Shown here: piece after piece, positions 2,604-8,021 of the stretch | Position numbering within the stretch: position 1 is the stretch's first letter | How the letters are laid out: each line of letters opens with the position of its first letter | Assembly: GCA_945883115.1 (NCBI GenBank) | Contig: CAMCXA010000001.1 | Span: forward strand, 62,001 to 126,000 | DNA from: Alsobacter soli | GTDB taxonomy: Bacteria; Pseudomonadota; Alphaproteobacteria; Rhizobiales; Beijerinckiaceae | Length of the DNA stretch: 64,000 bases | Direction: 5' to 3' | Position numbers and translations under genes: made by a program | Notes under the pieces: model-generated | What the model was told of the DNA's origin: nothing | The model's database searches: none | What the model saw: only the letters and a program-made list of their open reading frames with translations

Positions 2604-4457
2604 TCAATCATCGCGGTCATGGTCGAGCCCGCCAAAGTCGAAATCGGGCGGCAAATCCGGCAAATCGGCGTCCTCGTCGCTTACCGCAACAGCCTGCCGC
2701 AAATCGCGCACCTCGATGATTTCCGCCCCCGGAAACGTCGCAAGCACACTCTTAACGATCGGATTTTCGCGCACATCTTCAATCCGCTCGGCCTGCTTCG
2801 CCTTCGCGACTTCCCGAACCGGCGTTTGGCCTTCCTGCGATGACACGGCAACAATCCAGCGTCTTCCTGTCCAGTCACTGATCCGCTTGGTCAAATCCGC
2901 CGCAAGGCCGGGCGATGCACCGGGCATGGGTGCGAATTCAAGCCGGCCATTCTCGAACGCGACCAGCCGCACATCCCGCTCCAGCGCCGTCTTGATCGCA
3001 ATGTCGCGTTGCTCGGTCGCAAGCGCGATTAATTGCTCGAACGTATCAAGCCGCAAAACCGGGGCCTCTTGCACCGCAGCCGACGCCATCGGCGTAGAAC
3101 TCGGCGTCTGATCCGGCTCTGCACGATAGGCCACGCTCAGATTGCCGCTGGCTGTCGGCCCTCCCGAAGATGATCCCGCAAATGATCCTGAAGGTCGAGG
3201 CGCGCGCACCGTTTCGCCATTTTGCGTCAATGCCCGCAAGGCTTCATCCGGTGTCGGTAAATCGGCGGCATAAGCCAGCCGTACCAGCACCATCTCGGCG
3301 GCCGCCGCAGGCTTTGCGGCCTCCGCAATCTCGGTCGAGCCTTTCAGCAAAATCTGCCAAGCGCGCGAAAGGGCCCGCATCGGCATCGCCGCGCAGGCAA
3401 GCCCGCGCACCCGCTCGACTTCCGTCACACTCGAATCATCCGCCGCCGAAGGCATCACTTTCAGCCGTGTGACGAAATGGGTGAAATCCGTCAGATCATT
3501 CATGATGATCTGCGGGTCGGCTCCAAGTGCATATTGCTCCTTGAAATTCCCGAGTGCATCCGCAATCCGGCCGCTCATAATCGCCTCGAACAGATCGATC
3601 ACACGCGCCCGATCCGCAAGGCCGAGCATGGCACGCACCGTCTCGCCGTCCACCGATCCCGCGCCATGCGAAATCGCCTGATCGAGCAATGACAATGCGT
3701 CACGCACCGAGCCTTCTGCCGCTCGCGCAATCAGCGCCAGCGCTTCGGCGTCAATCTGCACCTGTTCCTTCTCGCAAATCCCTTTGAGATGCGGCACCAG
3801 AACATCGGCTTCGATGCGCCTGAGATCAAACCTCTGGCAGCGCGACAGGATAGTGATCGGTACTTTGCGGATTTCCGTCGTCGCAAAAATGAATTTCGCG
3901 TGTGGCGGCGGCTCTTCCAGCGTTTTCAGAAACGCATTGAACGCCTTGTCCGACAGCATGTGCACTTCGTCGATGATATAGACCTTGTAGCGCGCCGAGG
4001 CAGGGGAATAGCGCACGCCGTCCGTCAGCTGCTTCACATCGTCAATACCGGTATGCGAGGCCGCATCCATCTCGAGCACATCGATATGGCGCGATTCCAT
4101 GATCGCCCGGCAATGCACGCCCTCGACCGGCATGGTCACGGTCGGCCCGCCACTGCCATCCGGCAGCAAATAGTTGAGCCCGCGCGCCAGAATACGCGCC
4201 GTTGTCGTTTTCCCCACCCCGCGCACGCCGGTCAGAATCCAGGCTTGCGGAATTCTGTTGGCAGCAAACGCGTTCGAGAGCGTCTGCACCATCGCATCCT
4301 GTCCGATCAGATCATCAAAGGTCTGCGGTCGGTATTTGCGGGCAAGAACACGATAGGCAGATGGGCTGACCACAGGCTGTGCCGGCGCCGGAGTGTCGCC
4401 AAACATCGGGATCGTAAGATCGTCCCGGATCACGTCACTGTCCGACGTATCACTCAT
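2604..4457 (-). CDS. dnaX: DNA polymerase III subunit gamma/tau
   Basis: Clamp-loader ATPase of 617 aa. The AAA+ core contains Walker A GVRGVGKTTTAR (about residues 77-88), Walker B IIDEVHML and the SRC sensor LSRCQRFDLRRI. After domain III comes a Pro/Ser-rich linker and a tau-like C-terminal region ending in an acidic tail. The zinc module between Walker A and B is degenerate: where E. coli DnaX has four cysteines, this protein reads NYLLPDGSGG...GVHCRAI with a single Cys, as I recall is common in alphaproteobacteria. The gene is just downstream of the SRP RNA and upstream of ybaB-recR. Confidence 0.96.
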   Translation of the reverse strand: MSDTSDSDVIRDDLTIPMFGDTPAPAQPVVSPSAYRVLARKYRPQTFDDLIGQDAMVQTLSNAFAANRIPQAWILTGVRGVGKTTTARILARGLNYLLPDGSGGPTVTMPVEGVHCRAIMESRHIDVLEMDAASHTGIDDVKQLTDGVRYSPASARYKVYIIDEVHMLSDKAFNAFLKTLEEPPPHAKFIFATTEIRKVPITILSRCQRFDLRRIEADVLVPHLKGICEKEQVQIDAEALALIARAAEGSVRDALSLLDQAISHGAGSVDGETVRAMLGLADRARVIDLFEAIMSGRIADALGNFKEQYALGADPQIIMNDLTDFTHFVTRLKVMPSAADDSSVTEVERVRGLACAAMPMRALSRAWQILLKGSTEIAEAAKPAAAAEMVLVRLAYAADLPTPDEALRALTQNGETVRAPRPSGSFAGSSSGGPTASGNLSVAYRAEPDQTPSSTPMASAAVQEAPVLRLDTFEQLIALATEQRDIAIKTALERDVRLVAFENGRLEFAPMPGASPGLAADLTKRISDWTGRRWIVAVSSQEGQTPVREVAKAKQAERIEDVRENPIVKSVLATFPGAEIIEVRDLRQAVAVSDEDADLPDLPPDFDFGGLDHDRDD

Positions 4458-4506
4458 GGGCGGCGTGGTCCTCGGCGGGAAAAATCCGCTTGCGGGAGAT
4501 AAAGGG

Positions 4507-4606
4507 TGGGAGGCTGGACGGAGACCCGCCCTTGCTCGTTAGGGCTGCTTCCTTCCGGACCTGACCCGGTTGGCGAGTGGTACGTCCACCACCAACCTCC
4601 CGCCCC
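4507..4606 (-). ncRNA. ffs: Signal recognition particle RNA (4.5S, small bacterial type)
   Basis: On the minus strand the sequence carries the diagnostic SRP domain IV GGTCAGGTCCGGAAGGAAGC, with the GGAA apical loop and the asymmetric internal loop that Ffh binds. The ends pair through GGGAGGTTGG and CCAGCCTCCC, giving a single long hairpin of about 95-100 nt. The RNA targets ribosomes making membrane proteins together with Ffh and FtsY. It lies immediately upstream of dnaX on the same strand. Exact 5' and 3' ends are estimated from the terminal stem. Confidence 0.96.
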
Positions 4607-4651: not shown

Positions 4652-4963
4652 TTATACCCCGCCTTTATTCGGCATCACGCTCTTGAGAGCGGAGTTGATC
4701 CGGGTCTGCCATCCGGGACCAGTCGCTTTGAAGGCAGCAATCGTCGCGCTGTCGATTCGAAGCGTTACACGCGTTTTCGTTGGCGCTTTCTGCTTGCCTC
4801 TGGCGCGCAACGCGCGTTCGGCAAGTTCGGGAAATATTTCTTTAAAGGTGTTGCCCTTCGTGACATCTGGATCGAGAAGCTCCGGTATCTCCGAGACGCA
4901 ATCCCAGTCTTCCTGTGAATAGCCGCGACCCGCAACAAATGTTTTCAGTGTTTTACGCATCAT
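4652..4963 (-). CDS. brnA: BrnA-type antitoxin
   Basis: Antitoxin of a type II pair, about 103 aa. The C-terminal half (KTRVTLRIDSATIAAFKATGPGWQTRINSALK) is the BrnA/CopG-like ribbon-helix-helix DNA-binding region, with the characteristic GPGWQTRIN. BrnA proteins neutralise BrnT and repress their own promoter. The start overlaps the end of brnT (ATG at 4963, or the next ATG at 4960), with GGAG 5-8 nt upstream inside brnT, so the two genes are translationally coupled. The toxin-first order is the usual one for brnTA. Confidence 0.88.
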   Translation of the reverse strand: MMRKTLKTFVAGRGYSQEDWDCVSEIPELLDPDVTKGNTFKEIFPELAERALRARGKQKAPTKTRVTLRIDSATIAAFKATGPGWQTRINSALKSVMPNKGGV

Positions 4964-5204
4964 AAATACTCCGCTCCCGGTCACTCGATCGCCGCATACT
5001 AATCACCGAAACGCCTTCCGTACCGAGTGGAAAAAAGACAACTGAGATGATGATTTTACGAAATATGCCAACAGCCAAAAATCTGTTGTTTTTTGCTTGG
5101 CGAACTCGCGCTTCCAGAAAGAAATCTGTGGTTAGCTCAGAAAAATCAAATCCATGCTTGTCGATATTCGCCAATCGCTTCGGTTCATCCCAGACAATGA
5201 TCAT
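4953..5204 (-). CDS. brnT: BrnT family ribonuclease toxin
   Basis: RelE-fold toxin of about 83 aa. The BrnT pattern is clear: VWDEPKRLANIDKHGFDFSE at the N-terminus, a central strand (IIISVVFFPLG), then ISMRRSSDRERSIYDA at the C-terminus, which matches the family ISARRAT-x-E-R-x-x-Y ending. BrnT cleaves RNA when freed from BrnA. I prefer the ATG at 5204, where MIIVWDEP begins; an in-frame TTG at 5222 has no ribosome-binding site either. The pair is transcribed leftward, away from the HIT gene. Confidence 0.86.
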   Translation of the reverse strand: MIIVWDEPKRLANIDKHGFDFSELTTDFFLEARVRQAKNNRFLAVGIFRKIIISVVFFPLGTEGVSVISMRRSSDRERSIYDA

Positions 5205-5249
5205 ATCATTTTGTAGTGACAAAATAACATGAGGTCAATCCTCAATAAT

Positions 5250-5289: not shown

Positions 5290-5703
5290 ATGACCCAGTT
5301 TACACTCGATTCCCGCCTCATTGCCGATACGATCCCGGTTGGCGACCTCAGCCTCAGTCGTGTTTTGCTGATGAATGATTCCCGCTATCCGTGGCTGCTC
5401 TTGGTGCCTCGTCTGCCTGATATCCGTGAATTCATCGATCTCGATATGACCAATCGCGCCCGCATCTGGCGTGAAATCGAGGATGTGTCGGAGATGATGC
5501 GGCACGAATTTTCACCCCATAAGCTGAATGTCGCAGCACTCGGTAATGTCGTTCCGCAACTCCATGTCCATGTTATCGCCCGCTCGCTTGATGATGCCGC
5601 ATGGCCGCGTCCGGTATGGGGTGTCGGTGATCGTATCCCCTACGAACCAGACGCGGGCCAAGTTCTTGCCGCGCGTCTTTCTGCTGCTTTGGGGTATCTT
5701 TGA
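5290..5703 (+). CDS. HIT family protein
   Basis: Histidine-triad nucleotide hydrolase/transferase fold, about 137 aa. The signature QLHVHVIAR (His-x-His-x pattern of the HIT motif) is present near residue 95, with the upstream LLLVPRLPDIREFIDLD strand-helix typical of the family. The third histidine position of the triad reads A rather than H (HVHVIA), so the motif is shortened. The ATG at 5290 with AAGG just upstream is preferred over a GTG at 5284. The stop TGA overlaps the nudC start (TGATG), which indicates a two-gene operon with the NADH pyrophosphatase. Confidence 0.85.
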   Translation: MTQFTLDSRLIADTIPVGDLSLSRVLLMNDSRYPWLLLVPRLPDIREFIDLDMTNRARIWREIEDVSEMMRHEFSPHKLNVAALGNVVPQLHVHVIARSLDDAAWPRPVWGVGDRIPYEPDAGQVLAARLSAALGYL

Positions 5704-6650
5704 TGTCATCCGCGTACCGTTCGGAGCGTTCGGCAACCCTCGGCTATGCCGATAATCCACTGGACCGCATGGCCGCCCGCCGCGATGACGCCGAGTTTAT
5801 GGCCGGCCTTGCGGCATCCCCTGAATCGCGCACCTTTGTGCTCGCTGGTGATATCCCAATCCTGAAGCGCAACGGCGATCATCTCGAAGCGCTGTTCGAT
5901 CTCACAGAGGCCGAGCACCTCGGCACAACCCGCGAACGCGTGTTCCTCGGTCACGATGGCAAACGCGCACTGTTCGGGCTTCAACTCGACGCGCAGGAAC
6001 CCGAGACACATCAGGGGCGTGATGATCTTCTCGTCCTCGATCTGCGGTCTATCGCCGTTCAGGGCCTTTTGCCGCCGGAAATTCTCGGGCCGTTGGGAGA
6101 AGCAAAGTCGCTCATGTATTGGCATCGTCGCCATCGGTTCTGCGCCGTCTGTGGCCAGCCCTCCGCACTCGCAAGTGGCGGCTGGAAGCGCATCTGCCCC
6201 TCATGCGAGGCCGAGCACTTCCCACGCACCGACCCCGTCGCCATCATGATGGCTGTGCGGGGCGACAAATGCGTTCTCGGTCGCCAGTCCCGTTTCCCGC
6301 CGGGCATGTATTCGTGCCTTGCCGGTTTCATCGAGCCGGGCGAGACCATGGAAAGCGCCGTCCGGCGCGAATTGGAGGAGGAGGCCGGCATCAAAACTGG
6401 CTCGGTCCGTTATCTCGCCTCCCAGCCATGGCCGTTTCCGGGCTCACTGATGATCGGCTGTATTGGCGAGGCCCTCACCGACGCGCTCACCATTGATCAC
6501 GACGAGCTCGAAGACGCCCGCTGGTTCAGCCGGTCGGAAGTTCGCGCCATGCTCGATGGCACGCATCCGGACGGACTCAACTGCCCGCCGCCCATCGCTA
6601 TCGCCCACGCAATCATGCGCGCATGGGCGATTGACGGCGAAGGAGCGTGA
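5703..6650 (+). CDS. nudC: NADH pyrophosphatase NudC (NUDIX)
   Basis: Hydrolyses NADH/NAD to NMN(H) and AMP, and can remove NAD caps from RNA. The 315-aa protein has an N-terminal NUDIX-like domain, a zinc ribbon with two CxxC pairs (CAVC near FCAVCGQPS, CPSC near RICPSCEAE) and the following HFPRTDPV motif. The catalytic Nudix box GFIEPGETMESAVRRELEEE then ends AG-I, intact in all glutamates. A C-terminal SQPWPFPGSLM segment is the NudC-specific SQPWPFPxS motif. It starts at the overlapping TGATG junction with the HIT gene. Confidence 0.95.
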   Translation: MSSAYRSERSATLGYADNPLDRMAARRDDAEFMAGLAASPESRTFVLAGDIPILKRNGDHLEALFDLTEAEHLGTTRERVFLGHDGKRALFGLQLDAQEPETHQGRDDLLVLDLRSIAVQGLLPPEILGPLGEAKSLMYWHRRHRFCAVCGQPSALASGGWKRICPSCEAEHFPRTDPVAIMMAVRGDKCVLGRQSRFPPGMYSCLAGFIEPGETMESAVRRELEEEAGIKTGSVRYLASQPWPFPGSLMIGCIGEALTDALTIDHDELEDARWFSRSEVRAMLDGTHPDGLNCPPPIAIAHAIMRAWAIDGEGA

Positions 6651-6651
6651 T

Positions 6652-7941
6652 CTAGCTCCCCAGCGGCTCGCTATCCTCGATCTCGATGCCAAAGCCGGCC
6701 AACCCGACATAAGACCTGCTGCTCGATGCGAGATTGATGATCGAGACGACGCCGAGATCTTTCAAAATCTGCGCGCCAAGTCCCACTTCCCGCCATTGCT
6801 GCTGGCGCACCGCATCCGACCCCTTGTCGCCAAGCGATTGCAGCGGAACGCCCGATGTCCCGTCACGCAGATAAACCAGCACGCCGCGACCTTTCGCTGC
6901 GAATGTCTTTAAGGCCGCACTGATATTCGTGCCGCCACCGAATACGTCCGCCAGCACATCGGCGCGATGCAACCGCGTCGGCACCCCTTTGCCATCGCCG
7001 ATCCGGCCATGCACGAATGCAAAATGATGCACCGGATCAAACGGCGTCACAAACGCATAGCCAGTAAGTTCGCCAATTTCCGTTTTCACCGGAAACGTCG
7101 CCAAACGCTCGACAAGTTTCTCGCGCGCCTGCCGATAGGCGATCAGATCGGCGACCGAAATCCGTTTGATCGAATGCTTTTCGCCAAACGCATCAATCTG
7201 CGCCCCGCGCATCACGGTGCCGTCATCATTGGCCAATTCGCAAATCACGCCCACGGGCGGCAGGTTGGCCAATTTGCAGAGATCAACTGCCGCTTCCGTA
7301 TGGCCCGAGCGCATCAGCACGCCGCCATCCTTCGCGATCAGCGGAAAAATATGCCCCGGACGCACAAAATCATCCGCGCCCATATTGCCATTAGCCAGCG
7401 CCCGTACCGTATTCGAGCGCTGCTCAGCTGAAATTCCGGTCGTAAGCCCATGCTTCACATCCACCGTCACCGTAAAGGCGGTTCCGAGCGGCGCATCATT
7501 CGAGGCCACCATCGGCGTGAGGTGCAAGCGCTTGGCCGTGTCCGAACTCAGCGGCGCGCACACAATCCCGCACGTATTGCGGATGATGAAGGCCATCTTC
7601 TCCGGCGTGCAATGGATCGCCGCGCAGATGAGGTCGCCCTCATTCTCGCGATCATCATCATCGGTCACAATCACAATCTCGCCCCTCGCGAAAGCCTCGA
7701 TCGCCTCTGTCACACTGTGCGGCATGGTATTCCTCTTGGTGTTGTTTGCGGTAAAAGGGAGAAAATCATTCGGCGTCACGGCGCCTTTGGTCTCGCGTGC
7801 GATGGTTTCCGCCGTCTCGCGCGAAAGCCACGCCGCCTCATTATTGCACATCTGCGTTATCGCCCCGGGCGACACACCAATCCGACGCGCAAAATCCACA
7901 CGGCTGATCGCATTCTTTTTGAGCCAGACAGCAAGTTTCAT
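6652..7941 (-). CDS. ribB: HTH-3,4-dihydroxy-2-butanone 4-phosphate synthase fusion (RibB with RibA-like tail)
   Basis: Makes the four-carbon precursor of riboflavin from ribulose 5-phosphate. Three parts are visible in 429 aa. Residues 1-65 are a Cro/YdaS-like HTH (ARRIGVSPGAITQMCNNE). Residues about 73-280 are RibB, with DDDDRENEGDLI, GHTEAAVDLC and the GxxRPGH-type FVRPGHIFPL. The rest is a GTP cyclohydrolase II-like domain. That domain lacks the zinc cysteines: where active RibA has CLTGD...RCDCG, this reads ADVLADVFGGG, so GCH II activity is unlikely. An AAGAGG site lies 7 nt before the ATG of MPHSVTEAIEAF (position 7728), so a short RibB without HTH may also be made. Confidence 0.93.
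   Translation of the reverse strand: MKLAVWLKKNAISRVDFARRIGVSPGAITQMCNNEAAWLSRETAETIARETKGAVTPNDFLPFTANNTKRNTMPHSVTEAIEAFARGEIVIVTDDDDRENEGDLICAAIHCTPEKMAFIIRNTCGIVCAPLSSDTAKRLHLTPMVASNDAPLGTAFTVTVDVKHGLTTGISAEQRSNTVRALANGNMGADDFVRPGHIFPLIAKDGGVLMRSGHTEAAVDLCKLANLPPVGVICELANDDGTVMRGAQIDAFGEKHSIKRISVADLIAYRQAREKLVERLATFPVKTEIGELTGYAFVTPFDPVHHFAFVHGRIGDGKGVPTRLHRADVLADVFGGGTNISAALKTFAAKGRGVLVYLRDGTSGVPLQSLGDKGSDAVRQQQWREVGLGAQILKDLGVVSIINLASSSRSYVGLAGFGIEIEDSEPLGS
7722..7742 (-). promoter_or_regulatory. Internal ribosome-binding site in ribB
   Basis: On the minus strand AAGAGGAATACC directly precedes the in-frame ATG that begins the RibB catalytic domain. It is stronger than anything I see before the upstream ATG at 7941. 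It would allow a second, HTH-less product from the same mRNA, or it could be the only real start, in which case the HTH segment would be an upstream reading frame. Confidence 0.55.
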
Positions 7942-8002
7942 CGGAGCGGTCTAATCCGATCCAGAATTCATTTCAACTCAATTTTGGAAATAATGGTTCA
8001 AA

Positions 8003-8021
8003 AATTTAGTATAACTAAATT
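8003..8021. promoter_or_regulatory. 19-bp palindrome upstream of HTH-ribB
   Basis: AATTTAGT-ATA-ACTAAATT is a perfect inverted repeat with 8-bp arms, centred about 70 bp before the ribB ATG at 7941. Read on the ribB strand it contains TATACT, a good -10 element. A protein bound here would therefore block transcription. The HTH domain encoded by the gene itself is the obvious candidate ligand; this is inference. Confidence 0.5.

Follow-up and report, generated by a model that had tools for sequence, protein, structure and literature searches.

Does an enzyme of riboflavin synthesis control its own gene at this locus? The question arises from a ribB gene with an HTH head in the window, by which we mean the whole stretch of 64,000 nucleotides analysed. 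In textbooks, it is the FMN riboswitch that controls bacterial riboflavin genes. As the original prediction had stated, none is apparent here: the RF00050 search gave no match in the window at the gathering threshold and none in the genome to which the window belongs under stricter filters. Control of ribB by an FMN riboswitch in this genome was rejected on the basis of that search. Across the family, RF00050 exceeded the cut-off in 6 of 149 genomes, and the three of these six that were checked precede lumazine synthase, not ribB. The gene and the parts of its product are located as follows.

6652..7941, minus strand: HTH-RibBX gene, 429 codons plus stop, with the long-form ATG at 7939-7941
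7756..7941, minus strand: HTH head of YdaS/Cro type, residues 1-62 (Pfam HTH_26, AF2 and Foldseek)
7843..7869, minus strand: recognition helix, residues 25-33 (PGAITQMCN), a helix in both models
7726..7755, minus strand: linker, residues 63-72, predicted to be disordered (pLDDT below 50 across residues 58-74)
7135..7707, minus strand: DHBP synthase (RibB) domain, residues 79-269, with the DDDDRENEGD motif
6670..7107, minus strand: degenerate GTP cyclohydrolase II domain, residues 279-424 (PF00925, 83 bits)

The open reading frame at 6652-7941 matched both HTH_26 and DHBP_synthase, confirming the predicted in-frame fusion of an HTH to RibB, and full-length relatives begin at the same residue as the window protein, with GTG as the start codon in a few. 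Scanned by themselves, the first 71 residues passed Pfam HTH_26 with 26.3 bits (cut-off 22) and HTH_3 with 23.8 bits (cut-off 23). In the whole-protein scan, HTH_26 remained above its cut-off (24.7 bits) and HTH_3 fell below (19.9 bits), and the HTH missed the YdaS_toxin cut-off with 19.1 bits against 30. The AF2 model of the HTH by itself (mean pLDDT 87.5) contains five helices at residues 3-9, 14-21, 25-33, 41-50 and 57-60, arranged as in an XRE/Cro-type HTH. Its top Foldseek neighbour was the YdaS N-terminal domain 8co2 (TM 0.75, E 0.07), and no Foldseek match of the modelled HTH had E < 0.001. The full-length AF2 model had a mean pLDDT of 66 and a poor RibB core, probably caused by a shallow alignment, and was used for the HTH and linker only.

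The RibB domain passed PF00926 with 272 bits (cut-off 26.4) and TIGR00506 with 246 bits (cut-off 177.45). Its DDDDRENEGD motif is invariant across 38 aligned proteins, and 4i14 differs from it by one D/E change. Alignment of the GTP-cyclohydrolase-like domain to 4i14 showed that the zinc cysteines of a GTP cyclohydrolase II are gone, with SEC replaced and RRCDC deleted. Judged by these residues, the RibB domain is intact and the GTP-cyclohydrolase-like domain is dead, a layout that we take to be that of RibBX. This gene is the only RibB match in its genome, and a separate GTP cyclohydrolase II gene was found at G000:C21, beside a gene for a RibD C-terminal domain. Members of the RibB family are homodimers with an established enzyme activity. 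The domain architecture of the window protein, with a catalytic and a DNA-binding domain in one polypeptide, is that of a trigger enzyme.

The gene looks monocistronic. A NudC-like NADH pyrophosphatase (5700-6650, plus strand) is convergent with it. Also near ribB are a BrnT toxin/BrnA antitoxin pair (4652-5222, minus strand) and a bacterial small SRP RNA (4505-4601, minus strand, 53.2 bits), which lies upstream of a probable dnaX (2604-4457, assigned by eye).

The HTH was expected to be conserved among relatives, and it was. Within the genus, RibB was matched in 10 of 12 genomes, all ten with the HTH (seven at full length, the other three as N-terminal fragments lying at the end of a contig); the two unmatched genomes have a completeness of 83% and 78%. 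In the family, at least 64 of the 149 genomes, this one included, had a match starting at residue 1 or 2 (hand count among the matches listed). Heads of this type are called class A here, and classes B to E comprise RibB proteins whose HTHs were missed or weakly matched by the class-A profile. In the order, the class-A HTH was present in families f1, f20, f28, f36 (one genome), f42 and f50, and outside the order in two genomes (one further family). Among 40 further RibB starts, drawn from the class and picked for long frames or early matches, four, from two f94 and two f64 genomes, carried an HTH and 36 had none by eye.

One might read the head as a recent accidental fusion or an annotation artefact without function, since RibB genes lacking the HTH occur at scattered places in the RibB tree (five changes, at least four of them gains or losses forced by well supported branches) and the HTH is thus dispensable. 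Against such an accident stand the wide conservation, the low dN/dS of the HTH (0 to 0.22 for 21 within-genus pairs) and its co-occurrence with a palindrome described below, and we rejected this explanation as having practically no chance of being right. In Methylorubrum aminovorans, two RibB genes (L089 and L103) were found, each without an HTH. Loci with both HTH-RibB and the operator also included L081, L283 and L284 (a Zavarzinia MAG and two genomes from a different order), which suggests that gene and operator were transferred together. The occurrence of the class-A HTH beyond the order fits transfer, as does the Zavarzinia copy, which sits among the f1 members of the RibB tree with a weakly supported immediate grouping (90/17).

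Candidate binding sites for the head lie immediately upstream of the gene.

8003..8021, no strand: main operator candidate, the 19-bp palindrome AATTTAGT-TAT-ACTAAATT, 61 nt before the long ATG
7967..7981, no strand: second, degenerate operator candidate TTGAGTTGAAATGAA, with seven of the eight core bases

The 19-bp palindrome announced before the gene was thus found at 8003-8021, and comparison with shuffled sequences countered a chance origin. The sequence TTYAGTNNNACTRAA occurs a single time in the 2.6-Mb genome, at the ribB promoter. In the set L001-L117, 69 of 80 distinct HTH-RibB genes had TTNAGNNNNNCTNAA no more than 120 bp from the long ATG, compared with 34 of 16,000 shuffles; of 27 HTH-less genes, for which 300 bp were searched, none had it. 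For the core TTNAGN(5)CTNAA, class-A loci were left out when their upstream stretch was shorter than 80 bp or identical to that of another locus; L008-L011, L119-L125 and L154 were left out of the ribB set, and the 5'-truncated L070 out of both groups. All eight core bases were present in 125 of 147 distinct class-A upstream regions and at least seven in 145, the two exceptions being L182 (6/8) and L158 (4/8, where 100 bp contained no recognisable palindrome). Up to 300 bp upstream of 65 HTH-less RibB genes, the full core was never found and 7/8 was found three times; among 2,940 shuffles of 100 bp, 0.17% reached 8/8 and 3.2% reached 7/8. Many loci are close relatives, and the HTHs were clustered at 80% identity to reduce kinship; 36 of 45 representatives still had 8/8, and 44 had at least 7/8. 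An unbiased test for perfect inverted repeats reached P 0.05 in 53% of class-A loci versus 11% of HTH-less ones. The palindrome is therefore conserved upstream of HTH-RibB orthologues, and the full core is missing at HTH-less genes, as the proposal of an HTH acting on this site had anticipated.

The site appears to be dedicated to ribB. In 14 other HTH-bearing genomes, TTYAGYNNNRCTRAA marked ribB in 13, with zero or one extra site each. A wider regulon was unsupported in these 14 genomes, as the extra sites per genome never exceeded the reversed-pattern control, and by eye the flanks of six of the seven extra sites contained no obvious riboflavin gene. Genome G161, which has no class-A HTH and served as a control, gave six sites against eight for the reversed pattern.

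Upstream of ribB, in the same orientation, stands aroC, both in the window and in 80 of the 98 HTH-bearing loci for which 1 kb or more of upstream sequence was available. With aroC so placed and Ts following the palindrome in the window, the repeat might be an aroC terminator, or else the site of another regulator, with its link to the HTH coincidental. The terminator was rejected: a terminator scan does not report the palindrome, all 18 aroC-free HTH-bearing loci keep the site (8/8 in 13 and 7/8 in 5), and aroC is also upstream in 31 of 33 loci without a class-A HTH (one of them, L139, being class C), although the full site is absent from HTH-less genes. Coincidence is further opposed by the preferred distances of the site from the ribB ATG, by its co-variation with the HTH and by the different site found where the HTH differs. 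We regard this explanation as a whole as very improbable.

The half-sites vary together. Base 3 of the half-site can be T, C, G or A, and the partner base usually changes along with it: positions 3 and 13 were complementary in 80% of 74 distinct sites, compared with a mean of 39% and a maximum of 59% for shuffled partners (5,000 shuffles). No such symmetric co-variation was seen for the pair 6/10 (0.64 versus 0.60). Base 3 also varied with the recognition helix, where residue 30 had the highest mutual information (0.82, against a shuffle maximum of 0.20). Alanine at residue 30 went with C in 64 of 64 cases, glycine with C in 5 of 5 and glutamine with T in 48 of 58. With one sequence per cluster, 38 sites with a complementary pair remained: 17 Q-T, 16 A-C and one each of G-C, S-C, L-G, Q-A and Q-C. 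Among the 16 residues examined, 21, 23, 24, 26, 27, 29, 31, 34 and 36 also lay above their own shuffle maximum, as kinship would give, and the peak at residue 30 is therefore suggestive but short of proof; in these alignments its co-variation with base 3 partly follows kinship. In our alignment, residue 30 presumably occupies the position of the base-contacting glutamine of the 434 repressor. The pair of residue 30 and half-site base 3 is thus a candidate specificity switch.

RibB genes with other heads had other palindromes upstream, as follows.

Class B, family f23, six loci (40-45 bits with the class-A profile): palindrome TATTAGCNNNGCTAATA, full in 4 of 6
Class C, genus g17, four loci: two copies of TTGCGANNNTCGCAA, 9-11 of 12 bases
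Class C', genus g8, two loci: two copies of TTGCGANNNTCGCAA, 9-11 of 12 bases
Class D, family f30, one locus: palindrome GTTGCCNNNNNGGCAAC, present in 1 of 1
Class E, family f64, two loci (L285 and L303): palindrome CACATNNNNATGTG, present in 2 of 2

One representative each of classes B, C, C' and D scored above the cut-off of Pfam HTH families, and class E fell below (17 bits). Class B could be a divergent form of class A, and class E is probably an independent fusion. The class C and C' loci (L139 and L184-L188) have a different XRE head. All these palindromes precede the long start, in the same place as that of class A, and none of the consensus sequences was complete in another class or in the 65 HTH-less genes; as the consensus sequences were taken from the few loci that were also scored, these counts show specificity and are not an independent discovery rate. 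The inverted-repeat test gave P values of at most 0.01 for five of the six class-B loci (the best repeat at L237 being a different one), 0.035 for class D and marginal values of 0.05 and 0.075 for class E. It misses the palindromes of class C (P 0.67-0.94) and C' (0.45 and 0.08). In the RibB tree, C and C' are nested in a clade with class A (support 98/96), and from this placement head and operator were probably exchanged together there. Such a paired swap is a natural experiment on the joint change of a regulator and its site.

The co-variation of palindrome and recognition helix, together with other palindromes at other HTH types, would be difficult to account for if the HTH did not bind its own promoter. 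On the strength of these sequence comparisons, HTH-RibB very probably does so, and the earlier suggestion of a self-regulated promoter is supported to that extent.

What binding would do depends on the layout of the promoter and of the start sites, for which three further features are needed.

7949..7954, minus strand: candidate -10 TTAGAC, 7 bases before the ATG
7732..7737, minus strand: internal Shine-Dalgarno AAGAGG (duplex -5.9 kcal/mol), six bases before the internal ATG
7723..7725, minus strand: internal ATG, Met73, the putative start of a 357-aa short form, aligning with the start region of HTH-less RibB

A generic sigma-70 scan reported no promoter at this gene. Among 53 distinct relatives, positions -13, -12 and -11 before the ATG favour C, T and A (34, 33 and 43 cases), a preference that we take to resemble the alphaproteobacterial -10, with transcription presumably starting at or next to the ATG. 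The degenerate second site of the window, 25 nt before the ATG, overlaps a candidate -35 (TTGAAA) and has the position of the relatives' proximal operator. In proximal sites the spacer was TTG or TTT in 32 of 55, which places a TTGAC-like -35 inside the operator; distal sites had it in 2 of 65. An operator lying over the -35 argues for repression, and in view of this arrangement HTH-RibB probably represses its own promoter. The alternative that it binds the operator and activates, or does both depending on a ligand, and is no plain autorepressor, draws on 51 of 145 loci, in which the best site has its end 51-54 nt from the ATG. On a leaderless mRNA, such a site would be centred near -60, a classical activator position. 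Since 67 of the 145 loci have their best site over the likely -35, ending 23-28 nt ahead of the ATG, and the spacer signal belongs to proximal and not to distal sites, we consider activation unlikely.

The gene was predicted to carry AAGAGG before its second Met; the motif does precede the internal Met, but Met73 is the third Met, Met31 lying inside the HTH. With identical HTH-plus-linker proteins counted once, 95% of 144 internal starts had a Shine-Dalgarno of -4 kcal/mol or stronger, compared with 30% of control windows, 3% of the 144 long starts and 44% of 70 HTH-less RibB starts. Class C was an exception, with a strong Shine-Dalgarno at the long start (-9.3 to -9.5, four loci). Long starts without and internal starts with a Shine-Dalgarno point to a leaderless long form and make a short form possible. 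Accordingly, the long-form transcript is probably leaderless, and initiation at the internal site may yield a short, HTH-less form. The gene would thus offer a natural two-product arrangement of a leaderless long form and a Shine-Dalgarno-driven short form.

Taken together, we hold with high confidence that the window protein is a RibBX with a fused HTH whose dimer sets its two heads on the palindrome of its own promoter as a nearly sole target, most likely repressing through the -35. In the proposed mechanism, the RibB dimer would present two HTH heads to the promoter palindrome, and occupation of the proximal operator would cover the -35 and repress transcription, with a distal operator often about 26 bp further up. 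The short form from the internal start could dilute the repressor dimers, and a metabolite signal might act on RibBX. The last step could be dispensed with if the protein simply measures its own concentration, in which case it would be an autoregulator and not a strict trigger enzyme. A target set of nearly one promoter is enough for homeostasis of a single protein, whereas the catalytic and inactivated GTP-cyclohydrolase-like domains may provide ready-made ligand pockets; control without a metabolite is quite possible, if short of an even chance. More tentatively, and with considerable doubt, we envisage an alternative to the FMN riboswitch in which RibBX senses a flavin or an intermediate, possibly in its dead GTP-cyclohydrolase domain, on behalf of its own gene only. 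Leaderless initiation would then yield a repressor-enzyme and internal initiation a plain enzyme, mixed long and short dimers would tune repression, and several exchangeable heads, each with its own operator, would have been plugged onto the same enzyme in evolution. For the preferred reading of a self-binding, most likely repressing RibBX, the consequence is that several families of Hyphomicrobiales have a different solution from the FMN riboswitch, an enzyme very probably regulating its own gene through one dedicated operator. The enzyme for a vitamin B2 building block carries such a DNA-binding head in many bacteria associated with soil or plants, where enzyme and regulator would be one molecule.

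Several known systems resemble parts of this arrangement. RibBX, a RibB with an inactive RibA-like domain, has been described for Proteobacteria; it has the same DHBP synthase and GTP-cyclohydrolase-II-like domain without zinc cysteines, and here a fused HTH and an upstream operator are added, neither of which, to our knowledge, is part of that description. The closest HTH fold belongs to the YdaS/Cro-type prophage regulators 8co2 and 8c7k, which are also the best, though weak, sequence neighbours in the PDB (E 0.17). Such phage regulators stand alone, whereas the head of HTH-RibB is fused to an enzyme and scores below the YdaS_toxin cut-off. In the alphaproteobacterium Wolbachia, the transcription factors wBmxR1 and wBmxR2 bind at the promoter of ribA, a riboflavin gene; unlike the fused HTH-RibB, they are separate from the enzyme (PMC3518464). 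No description of an HTH-RibB fusion or a self-regulating RibB was found in the literature searched, which covered few subscription journals, nor are they mentioned in the passages of riboflavin reviews at hand. BirA, PutA and NadR are trigger or autoregulatory enzymes that combine an enzyme with a DNA-binding domain and control genes of their own pathway; HTH-RibB differs from them in its enzyme and HTH family, in its target of nearly one promoter and in the exchange of HTH and operator during evolution. RbkR, the archaeal riboflavin kinase/regulator, likewise joins an enzyme of the riboflavin pathway to an HTH that controls riboflavin genes, the enzyme being a riboflavin kinase in Archaea and a DHBP synthase in HTH-RibB. 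An enzyme that regulates its own gene is thus of a kind already known, and what is new is the HTH-RibB variant.
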